Source: Echinostoma caproni (lineage: Eukaryota; Platyhelminthes; Trematoda; Plagiorchiida; Echinostomatidae). From it: a stretch of DNA of 64,000 nt. Under the pieces are notes generated by a model that worked only from the letters and a program-made list of their open reading frames with translations, was not told the origin of the DNA and made no database searches. Shown piece by piece: positions 229 to 61,470 of this stretch (the stretch's first letter is position 1; every line of letters begins with the position of its first letter). Location: positions 1 through 64,000 of the forward strand of contig UZAN01040837.1 of NCBI GenBank assembly GCA_900618425.1, in the 5' to 3' direction. The position numbers and the translations under genes are program-made.

Positions 229-3200
229 CGACAATTCTCGATTCTGTCAACAGAGATACGTGCACAATCCAAAGTGAGCCCAAGGAAAAGCCAAAAATGG
301 GGTACATAAAAATTGCATATTCTAACAGGGGTCCTTACACAGATATCCCGAGAATGGAACAACCCACTTAAACCTGAACCGATACCATGGGCACGGTTTT
401 GCACATAGTTTGTGGTAGTAATCCTTATTCAAAATAGTACTGTTTGGCTTCCATACCTTTTACAGTCCTGGTTTTCGGGCGGACATCGTCAGTTGCCACT
501 TTCATGCAACCTGTGATATTGACAATACATACATTTAGTAAATCCGACGATTGATCAGCTCATCTCTCTCAGCGACATGAGTCAAACTTTGTCTTCAGGA
601 AAAAAACGGTATAAGTTACCGAACTGACCACATACGGGGGAGACTTAGATTAGCTTATTTTCAATCATTTATAAGCCCCTAGCTGAATTGAGCGGGATCT
701 GGCTTGGAGAGTAATTTCTAGCGTTTTGTTCTATCTCCCTTTTTGGAGGAAGCGGTTGATTTTTGTATCAGGCTTCGGGTCAACTATGGCCAGTTTCTGC
801 GAACTGCGCCACTTGATAACAAATCAACATTGCCTGTCGGTCTAAGTTAAATTGGATTACCAGGTGCGGCCAATGAGCTGGCGAATAATTTACTTTGGTA
901 ACCTGTAATCATTGGAGCTTGAGCGAGAGCAATACACACGTACACGCGCATGTTAGTTTCTGACCCCCACCATTTGGTGATTTGTCCTTGCTTTTGATTG
1001 GTTGTTCCCGCTCGCGAATGATCAAACGATCTGACCAGATAGTTACTGAACTGAATAAACAACAATGCATTTATGACGCATTGATCTGGTTGAGATTCAA
1101 TCGATGTCCACACCACTTGGTCGATTCGGGGCATCAGAGGATTCCGATGTTATTGAGAGCACACAACGGACGATAAATGCATTAACGTGAAATTATTTAT
1201 ATGGATGTAGTGGTAATCACGAATAGTTTTCCAATTCCAGCTCCCTCTTACCCATCTTAAATGGATAGATGGACAGACAACCATTTATTCGATACCTTGG
1301 TTTAATTTTTCACCATAACCTCAAATGATGTGACCACCACAGAAACGTGTTCCTGAAGGTCAGAAGGTTTTCATTTCATGCTTTGCGTCTCCAGTCACTT
1401 TGTACCCTGTTGATCTCATATAGAATTTTCATTTTGCCCGAGTTTGTCACACTGGCTCTATGGTTCGTCTGTTACCTTTTCCGGTGCATTTATCAAGGGT
1501 CATTAATTTATTTCTAGATCCCTAAACGTTTTTCGGTACATATTTTTATGTCACGTAAAAACCTGGTACAGGATGTTGCAACTCTTTACTATAAAACTTG
1601 TGAACCGGATGGTTTTATGTACCTGTTCACACCTAATTAAACACTGACCTTAGTCAATGCCTTTGGCCCTCATCCACTTGTTCTTGCTATCAACATATAC
1701 AAGCACGCATAGAGGTATACAGGCTTTGGGTTGTTCCTTATCTGTCTGGATTTTTCACGAGGCCACAACTAGTTGCATCTGATCTGCTCAAGATGTGAAG
1801 CTAAACTGGCCACTATTTCAATGGTGTTGCCATTGATCTTCTGTCGTTGTCGTGGTTGTTGCTTATGTTACTCGTAACATGGTGCATTATATTGTTTATT
1901 TTTTGATGCCAGTGGTTATATGACAGCTGAATATTCATCTTTCAAGGTGCATTAAGCACGTACTCAACTTAACTACACCAAATACAATCAGGTTTATCTT
2001 GCTGTTTTGTCCCTATTGTATACTCAGTGACTGAGTTGGTTGAGAGTTCTTGCATATCCCGAGTACGAAACCTTTTTTCTAGCTCCATGACAATGGATTA
2101 TATTGGTTTTTCGCCCGTAGCTTCGCTATCTGATAGTTTGATAATTCGAACGGCAATGCGAATGGAAGTGGAAATACCCTTGTACTTTTTGAGACAAATG
2201 TATTGTATTAGGCAACATTTTGGTGTATTCACGAAATCGTTTCATTGCACACAAAATTTTATTAACAATGGCGGCAAAAGTTCCACGAGTACTGTCTACC
2301 GCAATTTGAGAACAAAACGCATCAGCCCTCTACCCGGCAAGATGAGGATGATAAAATTGATGGCCCACAGAACAAATATCTGTTCTGCGTGACTCGACTA
2401 ATCAGATGTGAGACAAAAAAACCAAAACTGAAAGCGATTCAGAGATGAAAATCGCCAAAATCAAATAAAAGTTATGGTTCTAGCTATCAACCAATCGGAA
2501 ATGATAATGTGCGTAAACAGACCGCTTCTGAGTCTTGGTTCGAATGAGCGAATAGAGTGATTGAGTGCTGGTGTTGATGGAATGGGGAGGGACAATTCTT
2601 CAGCAAACATAGTTTTTATCTTGAGTAAATTCACCGATTTCCTAATCTAAATTGAGATTAGTAACAGGAGCATAATCGCTGATTTGGCTTCATACTGAGA
2701 AGCAAACGTGAGAGTCGATTTCAATCTGAAGTGTAGAATATAACATAAAACCAAACTCATTTACAGTCAGCCAGATAGTCTTCTTATTAGGCTCATACCA
2801 TTTCACATTAGATTCCGGACGATGATTGATTTGGATATCACAATGAGTAGTATATGAATGACTAAATGAATGTTCCCAGAAGCACACGATTGGTTTTGCG
2901 GTCCTTGGTACAGAATTATCACAATCACTTATTCGTCTCAAATCCACTGCCGGAACTGCAAATGAGGTTTGGATTACATAATTCATATCGGGTGTTCAAG
3001 TATAAGAATAGCAGACGGAATATTACCGGATACGATTACCTGACGAGTGGTAAGGACCACAAAACCGGTTATGTGCTTCCGTGAAAGTTTGTTCAGTCAT
3101 TCACATACTACTCATTATAGCAAGTATTGCTGGCTGGAAACATCAAACTCAAATCAGCCGGAATATCATTCGCTTAAACAAGACCTTACCTCCTTCTATT

Positions 3201-4332
3201 GTCGAATTGATTCACGGGGTTGATTTGCATAGGCAACATTGCCCTTTTGACAAACCGCACGGATCCGCATTCCATCAGAGCTGGCAAAAAACCGTTGGAA
3301 TGGTTTTATTTGCACAGATCGGTTTTTCTCATTGGTGAGGAATCTGATGCATTTTAATCTATGTTCACTTTGTCAAGATCTGGAAGGGCATGTTTTTGAA
3401 ACCATTTATCGCATCAATTGTGACCGCCACTTCCTTCTGCTGGTGCAAATGAGGACAAAACTTCACTCCGGTTTCGCATCGATGACACTGTGATTTGCGG
3501 TACTCGGGTGATCCAGAGTTCTTGCTTCAGTTAAATGAACAAGTCAAACAGATTCCTTATTTAGGACAAGACACATGAGATGAGGAGCGGGACACGGGGG
3601 AACTCTGCCCGTATGACTAACTTGTACGTTTTCGCTAGCTGCCTCATTCAATGTGGTCATTTCAGTGTCTGTTGTCAAGAAGTGAAGTTTATGAACCAGT
3701 TTGGGGCAAAAGTGGGACTTTTAGACGGCTGGTGAAGAAACTTTTCACTATCGGCTACCAACCATTGTGAGCCTGATGAATAAGAGGAGAATGGAGTTTT
3801 GTGTTTTCAGGCTTCTAATCCCAGTGGAATTAACATGTCCCATTTGGGTGTATACAGCATTTCTTAATATTGTGTGACTTGGAAAAGATCAGGAGTCTCG
3901 TTGGGACTCAAACCCATACGTAGGCATCATTTGCTTCTTTGTATAACTTACAATTCCATACATGCTACCAAGTGCGTCCGTTTGCTTCTGTCCGTTGATT
4001 GTGTAACGGAACGTACAAAGTTCACACTGTGAGAGGTAATCTCTTAGCTCAACTGATGGAATGAACACAGAATGGAAGTGTCATCGGCGTACGTGCGTGG
4101 AATCAAATTGCACTGCGGTACCCAGTCTTTTCACGACAGTGTAGGTATATTTGCCCGACTACCATGCAAAACATTATCCTAATATGATAACATAATTACA
4201 TTTAAGTTTTGCGGAATACCTATTCCGAGGTAATTGTCAACGGTTGTCACTCATCTCTAGAAAGATGTTTGATCTAATCGGTCCAATAATATAACATAAT
4301 TAGGCTAGGGAAGGCAAAGTAGCTTCTGTTAA

Positions 4333-4522: not shown

Positions 4523-4944
4523 GAAATACGATGTGTTCAAACTTATAGCCCATATAAACGTAAGCAAGCATATACGCACAAGCAAACACGTTCAGAAGCT
4601 CTAACCAAACTGGATGGTCATCGACAATCTTAGTTTAACCGGTGTATTACACTTTTAGTGTTAGTTCATCTCTTAAATCAGCAAGATTGTGTCTCACATC
4701 TATTACCTTTGAATACTGTTGTTCACGCAGTGTACTTCATCAACACTTTAACCTGGGAGAATTTTGTTCGCATCTCGCCCATACCGCACAGGAATCCCTT
4801 TCAGGATTCCAGTCCAGGAACTATTTTCATCAGCTACATATACTGTTTCCTCACAATCGTCCGTACCGTTTTACACGCGGCAAATAGAAAGAAGTGGAAC
4901 AATTTAGAGTATCAGGCTTGGATTAGCCCATTCGATCATTCATA

Positions 4945-5121
4945 GGCACGAGGCACTCTTGAAGGTCTTCGATGTGGGTTTTACTCCTTGGAAGATCGTC
5001 AATTGCCCACTCGCGGTTCGAGTCCTGATAGGGACATAAAACGCACGCACTGCGGACGAGTCTAAAACAGGATGAAACACCTGCCCAGTGCTCTTTTTCG
5101 GTTATCTCAAACATTTCCGTC
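4945..5121 (+). mobile_element. Hammerhead-ribozyme SINE (Sm-alpha-like), degenerate copy 3
   Basis: The copy has a B-box-like GCGGTTCGAGTCCTGATAGG at about 5012-5031, then the GGGACA link, then a hammerhead-like segment at 5047-5091. Stem I is perfect (GCACTG 5047-5052 with CAGTGC 5086-5091), and the GAAA at 5074-5077 is intact. The core reads CGGACGA instead of CUGACGA, so U4 is changed, and stem III is weak. The 3' tail (CAAACATTTCCGTCG) matches the two copies at 18.8-19.1 kb. Confidence 0.75.
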
Positions 5122-6554
5122 GCATCTGAAGTGGAACACTATTTAATTTTACATTGCTTTAATCAAACTTACGTCGAGTGCAAATAACGTAAATAATGGG
5201 TTCAAACTGTGCCCTATAGAACAGTTTTGTAAGACATAAAAATCAGATTGATAGATGCAAAACATAACAAAACAGAGCCAGTTTTCATGGTCATCAGTCC
5301 AACATGCTTTAGTATCAGGAGTTACATGGTAGACCAGTCCGACGAACCGAGTTGTACAAGGTTTGCCAAAACATGCGAAACGCTGGCTATATGGAATGAA
5401 ATCTAAACTGAACTATTCTCATCATGGACAGCGCGTTATCTGTAGCAACTCTCAACCTCTGAGTGCCGTGTGATTTCAGCCTATCAGTGATTTGATATCG
5501 GCGATGCACCGAAATCCCCGCTTGTGAGGAATTGCGAAATATCTTGGACTTCACTTTTCTGTTCCTGTTCTGGATGCACATACTCCGTGAACCGGTACTG
5601 AGAACATCTACACAATTCCGTTTATCTCCGCAGATGATTTATCAAGATTTTCAGATTTCGAAAGAATAAGAGTGAATATCACTCTGATAGAGAGTACACA
5701 ATAATGATTTTACCTGTGTCTAAGCGGTGGTTTGGAGAGGACAGCGTATCAGGGGTGGGAAGTCCCATCAATTCCACTTTGACCACACTGGAACACATGA
5801 ACGAACAAACGTTGCTTTTGACATTATCTGATAGAGTCATTGTTCAGAATAACGTCTGACGAGTATGGAGGACCGCCAGGACCTCCAAACAAAGGTATTT
5901 TGCCTTGCTATGGAGGTTCCATTATTGTGGAATGAATTGTGGCTCAAGTCGCGTTACTGCCGGATCACTAGTGTGTGCACATATTAGCCGAGAAAAAGTT
6001 GGGGAGGATGTAGGGAGGTTCTAACTTCAAATAAACTCTTTTCAAAACGGGTGTTTACAAATCTCGTGCCGATTTCGCTAGGTATGTGTTGAGAAAACCG
6101 TAGAGAATGCAGTATTAGGTATCTAAAGAAACGTGGAGGAACGAACAGTAATGAAGACCAACAGGAATAAAATAACAAGTTAGACGCGGTTGAACAGCAT
6201 CGTTTGTCGCAGTATGAGTTTCAGAATGGTCAAATAGCTACCCCCGAAAAGTTTCACGAATTTCAGCGAGAGTTGCAATCAGTCTGGAATTTCGTACCAG
6301 TAGTAGGCCAACTAATGGGGAGTATTTAAATTGAACTTTATAATTACTGACAAGCACTCTGCCTCATTCATCATTCCACGTAAAACGCGTCGTGCTGTCT
6401 AGGGAAAAAATGATACTGATATAGCCGTGACACATTTCTCACCTTTTTGAATATTGAAACCTTAATAAAAATGCCTTTTAATGAATGGGGCGTTTGTTGT
6501 CAAAGGGGGCTTATCGACCGGGCACAATTGTAACGCTAGGCAAGTTGAGCACGT

Positions 6555-17418: not shown

Positions 17419-17600
17419 TCCTGCAATTCATGCATTTGTTTCTCCTTTTCAAACTTTTCATTATCCAGCGTTCGAAGTAGACGATCAATTTCGGATTGGA
17501 GTTTCGAAGCACTTTCCATATAGTGCGTGACTTGGGTTTCCAATTCGCTGATACGTTGACCGTATTTCAACTCGTATTCCGAAGAGATTTGTTTGTGTTG
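17419..17600 (-). CDS. ERC: ERC exon 8 (60 codons + 2 nt)
   Basis: The acceptor is GCGCATAG at 17601-17602 and the donor GTGAGT at 17413-17418. The 182-nt exon was found from splice signals; the ATG-started ORFs crossing this stretch are in other frames. It starts QHKQISSEYELKYGQRISEL and includes LQSEIDRLLRTLDNEKFEKE, matching AQTEVDRLLEILKEVENEKNDKD of ERC. It leaves GA, completed to Glu by the first G of exon 9. Confidence 0.92.
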
Positions 17601-18762
17601 CTATGCGCGAAAGCGAGCGAATCAGAGAGCGCAAGCGAGAGAACGAACGGAACGAGCGAATCCGGGAAAAGATTTTTGGCAATGCCGAACATAAGCGAGG
17701 GAGTGGCGGGGGGAGGGAAAGGAACCGAAATAATTCATCAGATGGTGCTGAGATTAGGTCATCTAACACCAGATTGTGTGCCATATACAAACGGTGTTGA
17801 GTGTCGATCAGCTAACAAGTGCTACTTACTGAAAAAATCAACAGTGGTTTAGGCAATTGAGTGCATGATAATGCGGTGTTCATTATCGGATAATGGATAA
17901 TTGCCATACACGACATAAACGTATGCCAGTGGTACGAAAAACACACGGAGAGCTCATTGGTCATCTTCATGACATGCTTATTGAACAAATCACATCATGT
18001 GGAGCCTATAATCCTGCCTCCATCTATTTCATCCACCTGCATCAGAATATGGTGATTTGTAGTGGAAACTATGGTAATTTGCATGTATTTCTATGAATTG
18101 GCCAGTTGTAATAGCCGTGGACAACTGTCTTATTCAGCAGGCAGATCACAAAGTTACTATATCCTTGGTTCAGTTTACAATAACTAGTTACTGGAACAAT
18201 GAATATCAAATGGGAAGCATCTTGCGCTCACAAACGCTTGTGCTCTTGTGCTCGCATTCGAAGTAATATAGAAGTTTAAAAAGCACATTTTAAGTGGTTG
18301 GCTGGAAGTTAAAATGTTGACACAAGCAGTACCCGGTTCATCAATAAGTAACATTTGTACAAGAACCATTCGAGTTGGCAATGTTTCCAACCCAGCCCAA
18401 AACATCTCTCGGAATTCAGCACTGGGTTGACTGAAGTCCAACCGAACTTACGACTACGGGTTGTATCGCATGATCCAAGTGAAACAATCCGATCAACTGC
18501 TCAGTTTTTCTGTCTATGCGGTCTCGGGTAGTCAACTAGCAGTTGGTTCGATGAATCAGCTCAGATGATGAGAAGGAACATGGATGAATATGATTGAAAC
18601 AACTGTTCAGTAATCTCTAGGTCTTCCGTTCAGTTCTGCTTACCACTTCCTCGATGAAATTCCTTACACCGTTTAATTATCATTGGCATCAATGATACAC
18701 CACAATACATGATTATTGCCAGTACCGTGTAAACTGAAAAATAAAAATAGAATATAAATATG

Positions 18763-18912
18763 CCATAAAAATGTTTGTGATAATAGACAAAGGGCACTTG
18801 ACAGCTGTTTCGTCCTGTTTGGGACTCGTCAGCAGTGCGTACATTTTGTGTCCCTGTCAAGACTCGAACCGCGAACTTTCGAGTTGAGACTTCAAACCCC
18901 TACCATTTACCG
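18763..18912 (-). mobile_element. Hammerhead-ribozyme SINE (Sm-alpha-like), copy 1
   Basis: On the minus strand it reads tRNA-like head, B box GGTTCGAGTC (18861-18870), link GACAGGGACAC, a hammerhead ribozyme (18794-18838), and a tail with TTATCACAAACATTTTTATGG. The layout (pol III-type promoter followed by a hammerhead) is that of the Schistosoma Sm-alpha SINE-like family. That family is transcribed and self-cleaves; activity here is inferred. Confidence 0.85.
18794..18838 (-). ncRNA. Hammerhead ribozyme, core apparently intact
   Basis: On the minus strand: stem I GCAC (18835-18838) pairs with GUGC (18794-18797). Core CUGACGA is at 18826-18832. Stem II is GUCC (18822-18825) with GGAC (18812-18815), closed by loop CAAACA. 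GAAA is at 18808-18811. A very short stem III (ACA/UGU) leads to the cleavage C at 18800. All invariant residues C3, U4, G5, A6, G8, A9, G12, A13 and A14 are present. The 1.1/2.1 pair is A-G rather than a Watson-Crick pair, which may reduce cleavage. The tiny stem III suggests it could act as a dimer. Confidence 0.85.
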
Positions 18913-18917
18913 TCGAC

Positions 18918-19071
18918 CGTGTAGCTCAGTGTTAAGGGTTTGAAGTCCCAGCCCGAAGGTTTGCGGTTTGAGTCCTGACAGGGACACAAAAAGTAGCACT
19001 GCTGAAGAGTCCTAAACAAGACGGAACAGCTGTCAAGTCCTCTTTGTCATTTATCACATACATTTCCATCG
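18918..19071 (+). mobile_element. Hammerhead-ribozyme SINE (Sm-alpha-like), copy 2
   Basis: On the plus strand: A-box-like GTAGCTCAGTG (18921-18931), B-box-like GGTTTGAGTCC, link GACAGGGACAC, hammerhead segment 18996-19040, and a tail with TTATCACATACATTTCCATCG. The core is CUGAAGA, but the GAAA element reads GGAA (A13 to G) and stem II has an A-C mismatch, so it is predicted inactive. It is head-to-head with copy 1. Confidence 0.85.
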
Positions 19072-20471
19072 TATTTAAATGCATTCAACTATTAGCTAAT
19101 TAACAATGTCCCAGGGATTGAAACCCACACCCAACATCATCGACAGTGCCTCGTGTCTGTGAAAAACCGAATGGGATAATCCAAGAATTCACCGTGTAGA
19201 GGGTAAAAATATTATTTTTTTGGTTTGCCGAACACACAAATGTACAATAAGCTTTCAGGAAGGGAGTCGTGGTCAAAACAGAGCTACTTGGTGAAACATA
19301 CAATTACGGAACGAGGGCGGCAGTAGTGACGGCGGTTTTGAACTCGGGACCGTCCGGGTGGCTATTTCGATGACCTTGACCACCGTTTCTTTTCTGTTAC
19401 CACAGACCAGTGATAAATTTAAATAATCGTTGCTGACAAAAGATGCAGCTGTGAATTTAGGATTGCTCCTGACACGATTAATCGCCACTCTTTCCAAAAG
19501 TACCATTGACACTCTCAGATTCAAAAGAAGTCACGACAAAGAATCTGTTATTCTGATGTACTAGGTGAGTATTTGTTGTGCCCAGGCACTTGATATGAAC
19601 CTGTTCGGTGGCATGGAACGAGTTGTCCCAGACATTTAGCATCTTATTATCCTTCTGATTTACAGAGATTCTCATTCTCGATTTTAGTTCTCACAGGCAA
19701 CTATATACAACACCAGACACTACTGTCTGGGTGGGGGACAAGTAGTCAAATTTTCCAACTACGGGGATTATCTTTGTACGGTGAATGTCCGGCTGGGTAT
19801 TCCCCACGCATAATTGTGATTGTACGCTTTATACTGCCATCATGAGCAGGAGTTAAAGGCAGGGAAATCAGCAGAAGTGAACACACTCGAAGCCTAAATC
19901 AGGACAACAGATTGATTCAAATTTGAACTAACTATTACCATTGAGAGTCTCACCCGTTAGAGTTGATGAACTGGACACACATCCTCTAATGCAAGTGTAA
20001 TACATGAAGCAAACGGATTTATCACTCTCGACTGTGTTACGGGTTTCCTACGACTGCTTCTAGTCCACGTTCATGTTTGTTATGCTCTGGAGGGACTCCC
20101 AAAGCCACTCCTATAGCCATCACGAGAAACACTGAGTTGTCAAGTAATGCAGAGCTAATACTATTGAATATATCTGACGGTCAATGGAAGGCTGTCCATT
20201 TCTCATCAGTATCATATGAAAATTGAACCTTGAAAATATTCTGTAGGTAACATAGCAATCACCAATGAACAGTTCACATTGTGTTGCTTGATAGATTTAA
20301 GTGTTGTGTTTGAATTGTGAAAACTTTAGTCAAATCTGCGAAATAACACAATTTGAACAATTAACCCTTCCTAAGAAGTTCACTCAGTAGATTTTGGGGA
20401 TTGTAAGGAAAACCTGTTGTGGTGTTCAGCTTACATGTTAACTAGTGGATGCGATATGCCTCTGTAAGTTT

Positions 20472-20596
20472 AATCGGTGATTCAAATGTGAAAAATCAGT
20501 GCTGTCGATGTGGCCTCTTAATTCAGCAGGTAAGGCGTGCGCTGTACAAACGTCTAGGGACTTCCTTGTGCTGGTTCGAATCCCCCCGAGGCTACC
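20472..20596 (+). mobile_element. tRNA-like SINE, family A
   Basis: The head TCGGTGATTCAAATGTG leads into GATGTGGCCTCTTAATTCAG (A-box-like) and ends with a B box GGTTCGAATCCCCCCGAGGC. The same head, A box and GAGGCTAC end occur on the minus strand at 32255-32401 and 61355-61470. Confidence 0.7.
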
Positions 20597-20774
20597 GAAC
20601 TTTACGCAATTCAAACGTGCTAAATGGTTGGTGGTGAAGTGGTTGGGAATGAAAAGTGTACGTGGATTACAAAGCAAAATAGTTTTGCTCTGTTTACTTT
20701 GAACGAAGATATTTGCTTGTATCAGCAACGACTGCAGTGTATTGTGTAGGTCACCTGTTAGGATTTCAACTCTG

Positions 20775-20970
20775 AACCACCAGGCGGTGGTGGCCCGGCG
20801 ATAACGTCACCAAATTATCACCCCGAGGATGTGTGTTCGAACCCCACCACCATCGCCTGACTTTCCTCTTTGTGTGTTGAACGGCAGCCCTCTGATTGGC
20901 CGCTACCCCCTTCCTGAAAAATTGTTGTATCTTTGTATATTCAATAAAAGGAAGTAAAGTGAAAAAGAAA
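20775..20970 (+). mobile_element. tRNA-like SINE, family B
   Basis: Head GGCGGTGGTGGCCCGGCG, then CACCAAATTATCACCCCG, B box GTGTTCGAACCCCACC, body with GGCAGCCCTCTGATTGGCCG, and tail TTCAATAAAAGGAAGTAAA. It is closely similar to 60865-61050, which makes the boundaries fairly clear. Confidence 0.8.
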
Positions 20971-21730
20971 AAAGAAAAGGCTCACGGCAGCAAATAAATT
21001 TGTGTTCAGCGCTGATAATTATATGGCTAGCGATGGTAAAATAGTTGTCGAAGTCTATTTGCTGGTCATCACACAAGACTGCTCTATCACCAAACGAATT
21101 GATAAATAGAGATTTACAATGCAATCTCTCAAATGAAACTGTTTGAGGTGCATAGCTGCGGAAACACATGTAAATCTATTTATTGTCTTGCAGTTTCACG
21201 TTATGTTAACGTTTCTTTGTTCGGGATTAGGCGTGTGATGGGTGCATGCTAAGCCAACGCTAGTCGGTTTGAATCTAAAATTCTATGCACCTTCCTTTTG
21301 TCCAATCCGCAACTGAAAGCATCTAGTGAAACTGCTTTCTTTTACACCAAAACGAAAGGGTCACGTGACTATCAGTGTAACAACTTCACTCTTGCCTAAT
21401 CCCCAGATCAGGATATGGTCGGTTTGCTAAACGTAGAAGATCAGATATCAGCATCCATCAATCGAATTGAGCCTGTCAACTTCCAGGAGTAGAAATGTCA
21501 TTTTCGTTTCACTTTTACTAAAAAATCACTGGTGAATGCTGACATAAATAGAAACGGAGTGAAACCACTGATTGTGTTGTCCAAGTTGTTTTTCGGTTTG
21601 ATTACTGCTAGCCCTAATTAATGCGAAGGTTTCTTGAGTTCACCCAATTAATGCTTGTAAACTCAACACTTAGTCCGAATTTTGCTAACATCTTAAACAG
21701 AGATAAGGGAAGATTGTAAGACTTTCTTAC

Positions 21731-21995: not shown

Positions 21996-22183
21996 CTAGA
22001 AGAGAAATCACCATTTTCTGTTAAGGGCATACGAAACAGTTCGAAATTCGCGGTATCATATCAAATGTAGATATCGTGTCTGGTAATTCAGCGCAAATGT
22101 TTAGGTAGGCAAGAAAAATATATATTTCACAGACCAATGTTTTTTGATGATTTGTGGATAGTTCCTATTTATTTTTTAAATTA

Positions 22184-22985
22184 ATTTTTAAGATTTTGAT
22201 TTGCATTGAACTCACGGTTACTTGTAAGTAGTCCGATGGGACGTTCTAGAGCCTTCTTGTCGCGGTTCAACCATGGATTCCATACTTGATCGGTGCACTC
22301 AGTGCCTGGCCGAACGAACGCTGATAGCAAGCATGAGAACAGTGCTCTTTTGAACTGCCCGAAAACACGTCCGACTAGTCCAACTTGCTTTAGAGCCATG
22401 GATGGTGCTCTAGCACAGTGCGTGGAACATCCTACGTCATCTTGTACCATAACTCTCAAATCCCTTTCGTTAGTTGCATGCGATAGTATTTGGTTCCCCG
22501 GAACACAGAAGAAACGAGTCTTGTGCCACATGGAAATAACTCTGCATTTGGAAACAATGAGCTCGAAGTCATTGGCGATTGTCCATCGGTGGGCTGAATC
22601 GATCGTTTGTTGAAGTGCTATATAATCCTCAGGATGTGTAACAGTTCTCCAGATCTTAGCGTCGTCCGTAAATAACAACATAATATGCCCAAGGAAATTT
22701 GACAGGACATTTATAAATGCAACGAAAGGACGAAGCTCCGGTATGGATCCTCGGGGAACCCCTCGGGCAGCGGTGATAGGCTCAGATAATGAATCACCAA
22801 CGCGAACTGGTTCTTTGTCGAAGAAACTCCTTAATCCAGTGCAGAACCAAACCTCTTGCTCCGTAGTTGTAGAGTTTTTGCAGTAGAATTTGGTGATTTA
22901 CTCGATCAAATACTTTGGAGAAGTCCAAATAAAGTATATCCAATGACTGACCTGTATCGACGGAGTCAGTCCACTCACTATTACC
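22184..22985 (-). mobile_element. CR1/jockey-like LINE reverse-transcriptase fragment
   Basis: On the minus strand it runs from SVDTGQSLDILYLDFSKVFD (motif A, catalytic Asp in LDFSKVFD) through WIKEFLRQRTSS. A frameshift near 22815 follows, then VGDSLSEPITAARGVPRGS (motif B, GVPQGS-like) and LLFTDDAKIWR (motif C, normally FADD). The remaining ~140 residues are the thumb-side part, with LERPIG near the end. It is 5' truncated and lacks the endonuclease, so it is dead. Confidence 0.85.
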
Positions 22986-31842: not shown

Positions 31843-32254
31843 GTATGCACTACTGATAAGCTCTGACAGTATGAATGAGCTGGGGGTTGTGAGTGGAGAA
31901 GGAATCCGAATGGGGGGTCAATTCAGATCATCAAGGTTTATTCAACATCACTGCTCACAAGCTACTATCCGTATTGTCACAATTTAAAACAATAAGAATA
32001 GTAGATTTTTTGAATATATTGAAAATTTATCTAAATGGTTCCTATCTGATAAAGTTCCGTTCTTGTATACAAAATCAGGTGTTATTCTTAATGCCACCAG
32101 TGATACAGATACTAATACAAGAGTGTCTGGGGCCTCTTATCAATCGAATGGGCTAATCCAAGCTACCGTAAAAAGCACTACTGAGATGTTTATATTATCC
32201 TTCAACACGAATAAGTTATGATTATCGTTATAATTTACTAATAAATTTTATGAA

Positions 32255-32401
32255 GTTGAAATTGTTCAAATTCCAGTAGCCTCGGTGGGATTCGGACCCG
32301 CGCATGGACGCCGCCTACGCTTTTATACAGCGCATGATCTACCAGTGAGCTACGAGGCCACACCGATGGCACTAATCTTATCACATTCGAATCACCCATC
32401 G
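32255..32401 (-). mobile_element. tRNA-like SINE, family A
   Basis: On the minus strand: head GGGTGATTCGAATGTGATAA, A-box-like CGTAGCTCACTGGTAGATC, anticodon-side GCGCTGTATAAAAGCG, B box GGGTCCGAATCCCACCGAGG. The end runs into CTACTGGAATTTGAAC. The A/B-box spacing is tRNA-like, but the middle does not fold as a clean tRNA. Confidence 0.75.

Positions 32402-34157: not shown

Positions 34158-34210
<53 letters not shown>
34158..34210. repeat. (TAG)17 microsatellite
   Basis: About 17 uninterrupted TAG/AGT units. The long Val or Tyr runs in ORFs across it are produced by the repeat. Confidence 0.97.
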
Positions 34211-50155: not shown

Positions 50156-51543
50156 ACAGGCGAGGTACATTGGTCTGAACGCGGTGAAAAAATGTACGCA
50201 CACCACGGGGTGTGCTAAACACAAACTCCTTTCTCATTTACTGATCTGCTAGCAGACCTGGGAACAACCCGAAGCTCCGTTCGAGTTGAAGTTCATCATA
50301 GCATCAAAGGTTGGAGGAATCCAAAAGACAGCACAAGGTAGAATGTGGATGCCGTTAAAATAAAATCCTTCATGAACGACCTACGACTGCGTCGTGTACA
50401 TTACACTCACAAATCAGCCCATGCGTCGCCCTTTTATTTTCTGTAGCCATGGTAATGATGTACTATCCAAGGGATTTAAGTTAACTAAGAACAATTTTAC
50501 CGTCTTCCAGTATTTATCATTAGATAGTCTTCCCGTTAGGGAGATAACTTATGTGCAAATATGGACAGCTTTGGGGTCAGAATAAATTTCAACTCAAAAC
50601 CTCCGATGGCTTCATTGAAACTTTTAAGTGCAGAGAATAGATATCAGATTCCTTTTAAAAAAATAAGCAGAAATGAAGTTTATGCTCGTATTTTCGCAGC
50701 TAACGTGATCTTGTTTTGAGTCACTTTCAATTTCTTTGATTTCAGACTATCTAGTTGATGCCAACTGAATGCTTTTATTTGTGAAACAGTTTGTGTATTC
50801 ATCGATAAGGAGCGTTGAATAACTGTTTTGTCCTTGGTCCCCATGGTTTTACGGTTCAAAGCCCGGCAGGAACCAAAAAATGGCTCTCACCTCTCACCAG
50901 TACAAACAGAGACTGAACCGCTCTCTGGTAGTCTTTGTTGGCCATTGTAAAATTCGTTTCCAAATAAAGTTTACTAGCAAACCAGCGAACTTTGGGAGAG
51001 TAAATCCCAAACAAACCCAGAAGAATAAAGATTCCCACAAGAAATGCTATCGTATACAGAGAGTAGCAGAAACGCGAACAGAAAAATAAGAAAGTCCTAT
51101 TGAGTTATTTTGGCTTTGTTCGGTCTCATTACCTAAGCGATGAAAAATTCACAGAAAGTACCTCTTCCCCAAAACAAAATAACATTTCCCCGAACGGTCA
51201 GTTTCGAAAGCAGTCCTTATTTTGGAACAAGTGTTTAATTAATCTAATAATTATGTAAGTAGGAAGCAAAAGCATTTGTGATTAATTCGATTGCAGAGTT
51301 CTAGTACTGTTCTCACACTGTGATTGTTCTCGTTTTGCAACGAGAAACCCAAGATATTTTTGATGCTATCCTTTTGCGTCTTTCTACTGATTGTTTGACC
51401 GATTTGCTTGCTGATACCGGCTTTTTCGATTGGAAATAACAACTAACGATCAGAGTGACTTGACGAGATAGATACCAGTAAACGGACACACGCATACATG
51501 CACGCAAAAATTGCATCTATCATTCGGGATCAAATTTACTCAC

Positions 51544-59310: not shown

Positions 59311-59452
59311 TCGGTGAGTGGCCAGGGATTGTGAGGTCTTTTGTGAAGACGCTAATTGTATAAGAACTCGACTGCGTTGCCCGGAATCAATCCGTCAGTG
59401 TATTTCGAGTGGATTCAGAACTGGGATCGGTCCTGCATACTAAAACACACAG

Positions 59453-60340
59453 TTGTCTTCTATTAGCTTTGATGCTGATATTTTTCGGGGTGGTTTTTTG
59501 TTCCTTTTCTTTTTTCCAATGTACATATATGATCTGTTTATTCCCAGTGACTTTATTGCTTGCAAATATACTGATGACATTGTGATTGGTTGCCCATCCC
59601 CTATTTTAGACAGTTTTCATCCTCTCCAGGACAGCCTTAATGAACTTCACGATTGGTCTGTGCTCCGATCCCTTGTACTTAACATCATTAGATGCATTAA
59701 CGATCCATTTAGTCTTAAAACCGGCCCTCGTCATCTTACACTGTTAAGTAATCTCCCTGATCTTATAGTTAATAACCAAAACATCCCCAAATCTATTTCT
59801 GTTAAATACCTTGATGCTTCTCACTCATAACCGTTCATGATCTGTTCATGTCATCAGCGTTTTTACAAGAGTTCGAAACTATCTATTTATGCACACAAGC
59901 TCCGGAGGCTGACCGTCTCATATAACCTTATTCTTAAACTCGTGTTGACCTACATCATTCCGCACTGGTTAAACGGCTCCCCAATATTTATCCTTGGTCT
60001 GAAAGAAAAAGACTTCACTTTGATTTCTAGGCCTTACTTCAGTTGAGTTTATAGAGTTGTTTTGGTTGAGTTTTTTATTTCCAACAATTTTGACGCTTGT
60101 GATACCCTTATTGACATGGCAACATGTGATCAAGGACATTCTTTGCACCGAGAAATCGTGAAAGCCCAGTCAAATCCCCGAACTCACTCCAAACATCAAC
60201 TCCCTCCTGTGCGTACGTCCACATATACAGAAACAGTCTATGTTTATACCTTTCTCGAATATTGGTTAATTGGAAGACAATTGTCACCCACCTCAGAGAA
60301 AGACCTACGCATTGATTTTCTCTCATTCACTACAGTATAG
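59453..60340 (+). mobile_element. Non-LTR (LINE) reverse-transcriptase C-terminal fragment
   Basis: One frame is kept for almost 890 bp, interrupted by stops at 59828-59830 and 60044-60046. It encodes ACKYTDDIVIGCPSP (motif C, normally YADD), DSLNELHDWSVLRSLVLN, a LTLLSNLPDLIVNNQNIPKS stretch and a conserved-looking end with DQGHSLHREIVKAQSNPRTH. It differs from the CR1-like fragment at 22 kb. The 5' part and endonuclease are absent. Confidence 0.85.
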
Positions 60341-60386: not shown

Positions 60387-60596
60387 TTGTGAGAAAACAC
60401 AAAGTAGCGAACAAGCTCGTTTGCGGTGATTCTTCTACAGGCTAATACATCACAATTTATATCAAACGGTTTGGAAGGGGTGGAGAGATCAAGATCTCTC
60501 CACCCCTTCCAAACCGTTTGATATAAATTGTGATGTATTAGCCTGTAGAAGAATCACCGCAAACGAGCTTGTTCGCTACTTTGTGTTTTCTCACAA
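60387..60596. repeat. Perfect palindrome, 104-bp arms with 2-base spacer
   Basis: The left arm 60387-60490 and right arm 60493-60596 are exact reverse complements (from TTGTGAGAAAACAC to TGGAGAGATC, spacer AA). I compared them base by base and saw no mismatch. It starts about 45 bp after the LINE fragment ends. Confidence 0.97.
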
Positions 60597-61354: not shown

Positions 61355-61470
61355 AAGATCAGTAGCCTCCGTGGGATTCGAACCCACGCATGAATGGTTT
61401 TGTATAGCACAAGCTCCATCAGCTGAGCTACGAGACCGGACCGGTGGCACTGGTCTTTTAACATCTGGAT
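61355..61470 (-). mobile_element. tRNA-like SINE, family A
   Basis: On the minus strand: CCAGTGCCACCGGTCCGG head, CTCGTAGCTCAGCTGATGG (near-perfect A box), then GTGGGTTCGAATCCCACGG (perfect B box) and AGGCTACTG. This is the best-preserved promoter of the family. The first three bases of the tRNA-like part do not close a standard acceptor stem with the end, so I call it SINE rather than tRNA gene. Confidence 0.75.

Follow-up and report, generated by a model that had tools for sequence, protein, structure and literature searches.

An ELKS/CAST intron carrying an array of short repeats

The window, by which we mean the whole 64,000-nucleotide stretch of DNA that was analysed, carries on its minus strand a gene of the ELKS/CAST (ERC) type, and one intron of this gene encloses the repeat array considered here (Table 1). 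Seven single minus-strand open frames match the Pfam Cast family PF10174 (E ≤0.01 or ≤0.001, depending on the search), three of which reach its curated cut-off of 29.1 bits with scores of 33.4, 39.1, and 39.3, and the joined 707-residue reading matches the same family with 180.7 bits and E 5.9e-53. The best of 99 database matches to the joined reading is ERC protein 2 of Echinostoma caproni, with 89% identity, followed by Paragonimus westermani with 69%, which bears out the original prediction of a fluke host and points to E. caproni itself or a very close relative. In a tblastn search with the E. caproni protein (P0005), 19 minus-strand blocks scored above 28 bits in a list that leaves out weaker rows and plus-strand rows; 13 of them are colinear, five at an identity of at least 98% and seven at 96% or more, while the lower-identity blocks seem to run beyond the exon ends. 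The blocks stop at about 21722 and resume at 17600, and together with the Pfam family and the splice sites this gap supports the earlier placement of the motif in the intron of a neuronal-type gene. The ribozyme of copy A is on the sense strand of ELKS, 1.2 kb ahead of the acceptor.

Table 1. Features of the intronic array and of related copies in the window
Feature	Position	Strand	Basis
ELKS/CAST (ERC) intron enclosing the array, 4.1 kb, GTAAGA donor, AG acceptor	17601..21730	minus	tblastn blocks and splice sites; ends counted by hand
Target-site-type repeat ACCGTGTA, left of A	18724..18731	plus	exact 8-mer
Copy A, SINE-like, 184 bp, made up of a B-box head, the hammerhead, and a T-rich tail; 5' end 18915	18732..18915	minus	ends from ACCGTGTA at 18724 and 18916
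Hammerhead of copy A, type I	18794..18838	minus	RF00163 score and core letters
B-box-like Pol III element of copy A, GGTTCGAGTCT, 1 mismatch	18860..18870	minus	box scan
Target-site-type repeat ACCGTGTA(G), between A and B	18916..18924	plus	8-9 bp
Copy B, more decayed, head to head with A	18924 to ~19074	plus	inverted-repeat arms and blastn, 83.6% to A
B box of copy B, 1 mismatch	18965-18975	plus	box scan
Hammerhead of copy B, decayed	18996..19040	plus	RF00163, 35.1 bits, and core letters
Repeat E, adjoining the 3' side of B	19098..19190	minus	blastn, 77% over 88 bp to 4917-5004; alignment
Target-site-type repeat ACCGTGTA(G), right of E	19191..19199	plus	8-9 bp
Copy C, longer form (226 bp): E-type head and hammerhead module	4902..5127	plus	exact 11-bp flanking repeat GAAGTGGAACA
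Hammerhead of copy C, decayed	5047-5091	plus	RF00163, 27 bits, under the cut-off of 34, permissive search
Relic D, same module, hammerhead core gone	50848..50950	plus	model R1, 18.9 bits, E 6.9e-5; blastn

The hammerhead of copy A and its sister copies

The original prediction described a hammerhead at 18794-18838 with its core elements intact, and named an Rfam covariance search as its check, a score under the threshold being held to count against it. The type I hammerhead model RF00163 matches the minus strand at 18838-18794 with 53.5 bits and E 3.9e-11, against a gathering score of 34, and the motif is as described, with a complete core. Stem I pairs GCACUG (18838-18833) with AAGUGC (18799-18794) through five pairs, with a G.A mismatch at its base, adjoining the cleavage site, that is common to copies A and B; the CUGACGA box occupies 18832-18826, stem II is formed by GUCC (18825-18822) and GGAC (18815-18812) around the loop CAAACA, and GAA lies at 18811-18809. 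In the customary numbering of the hammerhead core, the conserved residues C3 U4 G5 A6, G8 A9, G12 A13 A14, A15.1-U16.1, and C17 are all present, and C17 sits at 18800, where a cleavable C had been placed, so that the predicted cut falls after 18800. By its sequence the copy A motif is a genuine type I hammerhead. Forcing the hammerhead fold in A gives an outer stem, GGACA/UGUCU, set off by an internal loop of 10/4 nt, an arrangement that may or may not provide a tertiary contact between stem I and loop II.

Stem III is ACAGCUGU (18808-18801), best read as two pairs and an AGCU loop. Its shortness had been taken earlier to suggest that cleavage may need a dimeric transcript, a step that we do not follow, since published hammerheads with a short stem III cleave and the stem does not by itself require a dimer (PMC7229834, PMC8490949). 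PMC7229834 compares a stem III of two pairs and a tetraloop with those of invertebrate hammerheads and reports efficient cleavage by the hammerheads of most invertebrate retrozymes, and PMC8490949 gives cotranscriptional cleavage in vitro for three of five candidates in its S. mansoni W-element set.

A second hammerhead, missed in the original prediction, lies on the opposite strand at 18996-19040 and scores 35.1 bits, barely over the cut-off of 34. Its A13 is replaced by G and one stem II pair is gone, and judging by these changes it is probably inactive. It belongs to a copy, B, that forms an inverted repeat with A: the first pair of arms joins 18760-18838 with 18996-19074 (79 nt, 84% complementary) and the second joins 18840-18905 with 18930-18995 (66 nt, 85% complementary), so that the homology spans 18760-18905 of copy A. 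In the third copy, C, U4 has become G and U16.1 has become C. By blastn, A and C are 81.7% identical and B and C 78.0%, compared with 83.6% for A and B. A sequence model built from the three copies, R1, found four matches at E up to 1 when the 64-kb window, which carries 1,549 N, was searched, namely the three source copies and the relic D.

Over 114 ungapped columns the private changes number four in A, seven in B, and 16 in C, and there are five columns at which every copy has a different letter. None of the private changes of A falls inside its 45-nt hammerhead, where one column is different in each copy. Copy A is thus probably the youngest, given that it has the fewest private changes and none within its hammerhead. 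The E-type repeat makes up the 5' part of copy C (77% over 88 bp) and recurs as a fragment at 32118-32163, and heads of two types, the E-type among them, thus seem to exist in the family. The copy count, the head types, and the order of insertion are drawn from one 64-kb window, with three clear copies and one relic.

Insertion marks, promoter boxes, and the origin of the array

The array is bordered by the repeat ACCGTGTA, which occurs three times in the window when both strands are scanned, each time at an array border. Markov trials with stretches of 40, 20, and 40 nt at the borders, which were run after the repeats had been seen and in which the repeats themselves had helped to set the borders, gave an 8-mer shared by two borders in 0.7% of cases and by all three in 1 of 100,000. 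Fifty-one 8-mers in the window recur at least three times within 480 bp, among which ACCGTGTA and GGTGCATT are the only ones to contain all four letters and to occur exactly three times. An exact 11-bp repeat, GAAGTGGAACA, stands on either side of copy C, at 4891 and 5128. With these flanking repeats, copies A, B, and C look like retroposon insertions, and copy A can be read as a 184-bp insertion (18732-18915) beside B; the empty site expected without the array is ACCGTGTAG.

In the case of B, its left flank (18690-18730) and 3' flank (19060-19150) share no word of six or more letters that could serve as a flanking repeat for B alone, and there is no target repeat between B and E. For the B/E junction we considered a 3' transduction, or an insertion of B into an E-headed element; twin priming does not fit, because both 5' ends face outward. 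The A/B pair as a whole might instead have arisen by one fold-back (inverted) duplication of a single element rather than by two insertions. Indeed, over the 114 columns A and B differ at 16 positions, A and C at 25, and B and C at 28, so that the closest pair is A and B, and the missing flanking repeat of B would also fit a duplication. Even so, target-type repeats are present at all three borders, the 5' ends of A and B are 4 nt apart as inferred by reading the alignment, and the sequence shared by the two runs out at 18760 and 19074, before the end of A, and we regard the fold-back origin as quite improbable.

A B box upstream of the hammerhead, also part of the original prediction, is present in all three copies, with one mismatch in A (18870-18860, minus strand), one in B, and none in C, and these account for three of the 13 B-box matches found in the window, where 2.48 are expected. 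The best A box in copy A has two mismatches and is equalled by 995 of 1000 shuffles; those of B and C have one mismatch each, with 514 and 361 of 1000 shuffles as good. The boxes of repeat E are weak as well (A box with one mismatch, 399 of 1000 shuffles as good; B box with two). A reading of the A/B alignment in which the A box of copy A had been broken by a deletion was dropped, because once the target repeat is counted as flank the two copies can be lined up by eye with no gap at that point, and the A-box match is uninformative. A search with Rfam found no tRNA match in the heads of A, B, or C up to E 1. The tail of copy A holds three runs of five T, which could act as a Pol III terminator. 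As sequences, then, the copies are SINE-like elements with a B box, so that within the earlier label of a tRNA-like SINE the dispersed short retroposon with a B box stands, whereas for the tRNA likeness the B box is the one sign. Since the A box is no better than chance and no Rfam tRNA match was found, we infer rather than observe both a tRNA-like head and Pol III transcription of copy A.

The window is rich in tRNA-type repeats besides the hammerhead element. Further B-box-like matches lie at 3904, 20573, 32288, 39006, 58095, 61374, 62771, and other positions, and a second tRNA-type repeat family is related to ARAGORN calls at 32276-32359 and 61362-61437. Two open frames, at 22181-22897 (minus) and 59444-59830 (plus), look by eye like decayed pieces of reverse transcriptase, the first of which has no Pfam match at E 0.01. 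A perfect TAG repeat of 17.7 copies occupies 34158-34210. At 60387-60596 there is a perfect palindrome with two 104-nt arms, 100% complementary and 2 nt apart, that gives sub-threshold matches to MIR6462 (50.3 and 49 bits, against a cut-off of 96), and whose origin is a very recent inverted duplication or else an artefact of assembly or library.

Probable masking of the ribozyme in host RNA and comparison with known systems

Copy B, which had been overlooked, would alter what ribozyme A can do in the host transcript. In ELKS-sense RNA the order is E, then antisense B, then A, and the 341-nt A/B stretch folds with -202.4 kcal/mol (z -21.6, none of 100 shuffles as good). Forcing the A hammerhead costs 58.3 kcal/mol in ELKS-sense RNA, both in the 476-nt array and in an 801-nt intron piece, compared with 8.1 kcal/mol in its own 184-nt RNA and 8.1 in the intron piece without B; for the decayed B hammerhead the cost is 13.0 kcal/mol alone and 66.4 in the plus-strand array. 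In none of ten folds of growing transcripts does any base of the hammerhead pair locally, and once the hammerhead has been made in full 41 of its 45 bases are taken up by antisense B, all of these masking figures being minimum-energy calculations and not kinetics.

The hammerhead core is not scored by nearest-neighbour rules, whose energies favour a non-hammerhead shape by the same 8.1 kcal/mol in A and by 5.0 kcal/mol for the Rfam consensus, this being the price of forcing the hammerhead on the consensus itself. For the 66 nt around the A hammerhead, only 1 of 200 shuffles folds as well (z -2.84), but the shape adopted is not that of a hammerhead. The 171-nt segment 18930-18760, which comprises most of A and a bit of the head of B, folds less stably than its shuffles, 179 of 200 doing as well (z +1.18). 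From the difference between about 58 and about 8 kcal/mol, we take the ribozyme to belong to the element and to be probably masked in the host pre-mRNA, and it is likely, by these calculations, that it is able to cut in the RNA of the element and is masked in that of the host.

Taken together, the feature is most probably the ribozyme of copy A in a hammerhead-bearing, SINE-like retroposon family of an echinostome fluke, one that would cut in element RNA and be masked in the ELKS pre-mRNA. The element RNA of A would be made from its own Pol III-type promoter or from another promoter, would fold the hammerhead, and would cut after 18800. In the ELKS pre-mRNA, antisense B would be made first and would pair with A on its emergence, so that the ribozyme would be masked and the intron spliced as usual; masked in this manner, the ribozyme would serve the element or be a by-product of it, and would not have a function in the host gene. 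A more far-reaching form of this reading, which we put forward only as doubtful, is that of a promoter-dependent ribozyme, active from the element's own start and silenced in an RNA duplex of about 150 bp within the ELKS intron; head-to-head insertion beside an older copy would then be one way for a genome to tolerate self-cutting elements in introns. If this were true, an excess of inverted neighbours would be expected among intronic sense copies with intact cores.

Alternatively, the copies might be non-LTR retrozymes, whose hammerheads process tandem transcripts into small circular RNAs that are the mobile form. A type I hammerhead in a unit of 184-226 bp fits the RNAs of about 170-400 nt described in PMC7229834, which counts the platyhelminths among the phyla with retrozyme-like repeats that carry type I hammerheads, and stem III, ACAGCUGU, is self-complementary, with a duplex energy of -11.1 kcal/mol. 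A tandem-repeat scan, however, found no tandem array at the copy loci, a separate repeat search gave no direct-repeat family in 18500-19500, A and B are inverted and C is single, and retrozymes are thus an unlikely explanation here. That the motif arose by chance, or is decayed and was inactive recently as well as now, could draw on the G.A mismatch at the base of stem I in A and B and on the competing fold, but is very improbable with an E of 3.9e-11 and with the motif recurring in the same place in B and C. Least probable of all is a domesticated ribozyme that cuts the ELKS intron and so regulates splicing or transcript level, as suggested for amniote intronic and SmPoMuc hammerheads: the intact core, the gene-sense orientation 1.2 kb ahead of the acceptor, and the amniote (PMC6155905) and SmPoMuc (PMC2576457) precedents, the latter keeping G12 only in group 2, speak for it, but copy A belongs to a dispersed repeat as its best-preserved and likely youngest copy, and by calculation is masked by B in host-sense RNA.

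Under the preferred reading of an element ribozyme masked in the host, the copies belong to an already known kind, that of hammerhead-bearing short retroposons, and are mainly a new example of it. They document a hammerhead-bearing, SINE-like family with its ends and flanking repeats in an echinostome, beyond the blood flukes; the Fasciolopsis buski genome paper (PMC6191129) speaks of a lack of widespread SINEs in flukes. The novelty is limited because PMC7229834 already mentions, at the level of platyhelminths generally, retrozyme-like type I hammerhead repeats. The inverted A/B pair is a naturally occurring case on which silencing of self-cutting RNAs in introns by antisense neighbours can be tested; apart from this and the record of the family, the array is an ordinary mobile-element insertion. 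Among literature titles we found none on hammerheads in Echinostoma, Fasciola hepatica, or Clonorchis, which is no proof of absence in print, and titles on E. caproni SINEs or on inverted SINEs in introns likewise included none on hammerheads in these flukes; in the passages of PMC2576457 cited here, the sole mention of Echinostoma concerns an unrelated matter. The pattern CTGANGAGTCCCAAANAGGACGAAAC has no match in public viral contigs, and a slightly looser form gave two stretches in public genome contigs, both bacterial. One of the two, at 828-888 (plus) of a Cohnella mopanensis contig (L002) and found via the stem II pattern, is a type I hammerhead over the Rfam cut-off with 37.7 bits; neither has any bearing on the fluke element.

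The closest relatives in architecture are Sm-alpha of S. mansoni and Sj-alpha of S. japonicum, SINE-like elements with type I hammerheads (PMC8490949, PMC2770079), the two schistosome genomes containing >38,000 and >5,000 hammerhead matches by the counts given in PMC2770079. Like these, the family described here is a short, dispersed digenean element in which a Pol III-type B box precedes a type I hammerhead (PMC8490949, PMC2770079, PMC2576457), and it shares with the Sm-alpha type the dispersed copies with target-site duplications, of 11 bp in C and 8-9 bp in the array. In contrast, copies A and C are shorter (184 and 226 bp) than the 335-bp representative W36.2_W001 of PMC8490949, the host is an echinostome, and there are two head types, one of them E, the comparison being one of architecture. 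The Sm-alpha-like SINEs are traced in PMC2770079 to tRNA-Gln, whereas the heads here have no Rfam tRNA match, and since this tRNA homology of the head was not found we do not file the family as a member of Sm-alpha, only as one that works like it. Short type I hammerhead units of similar size are also known from the metazoan non-LTR retrozymes of PMC7229834, reported from platyhelminths as well as other phyla, though these are described there as tandem direct repeats, of which there are none at the copy loci. The W elements of S. mansoni have type I hammerheads with a very short stem III as well, but they are satellite-like, and the account of them in PMC8490949 does not mention an inverted partner. 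Finally, the sequenced SmPoMuc mucin genes of S. mansoni (PMC2576457) have, in the intron from exon 9 to exon 10, a hammerhead accompanied by A and B boxes, and thus resemble the present case in placing a hammerhead and Pol III boxes in an intron of a protein-coding gene, whereas here it is another gene, a single locus, and an inverted partner that is able to pair with the ribozyme.
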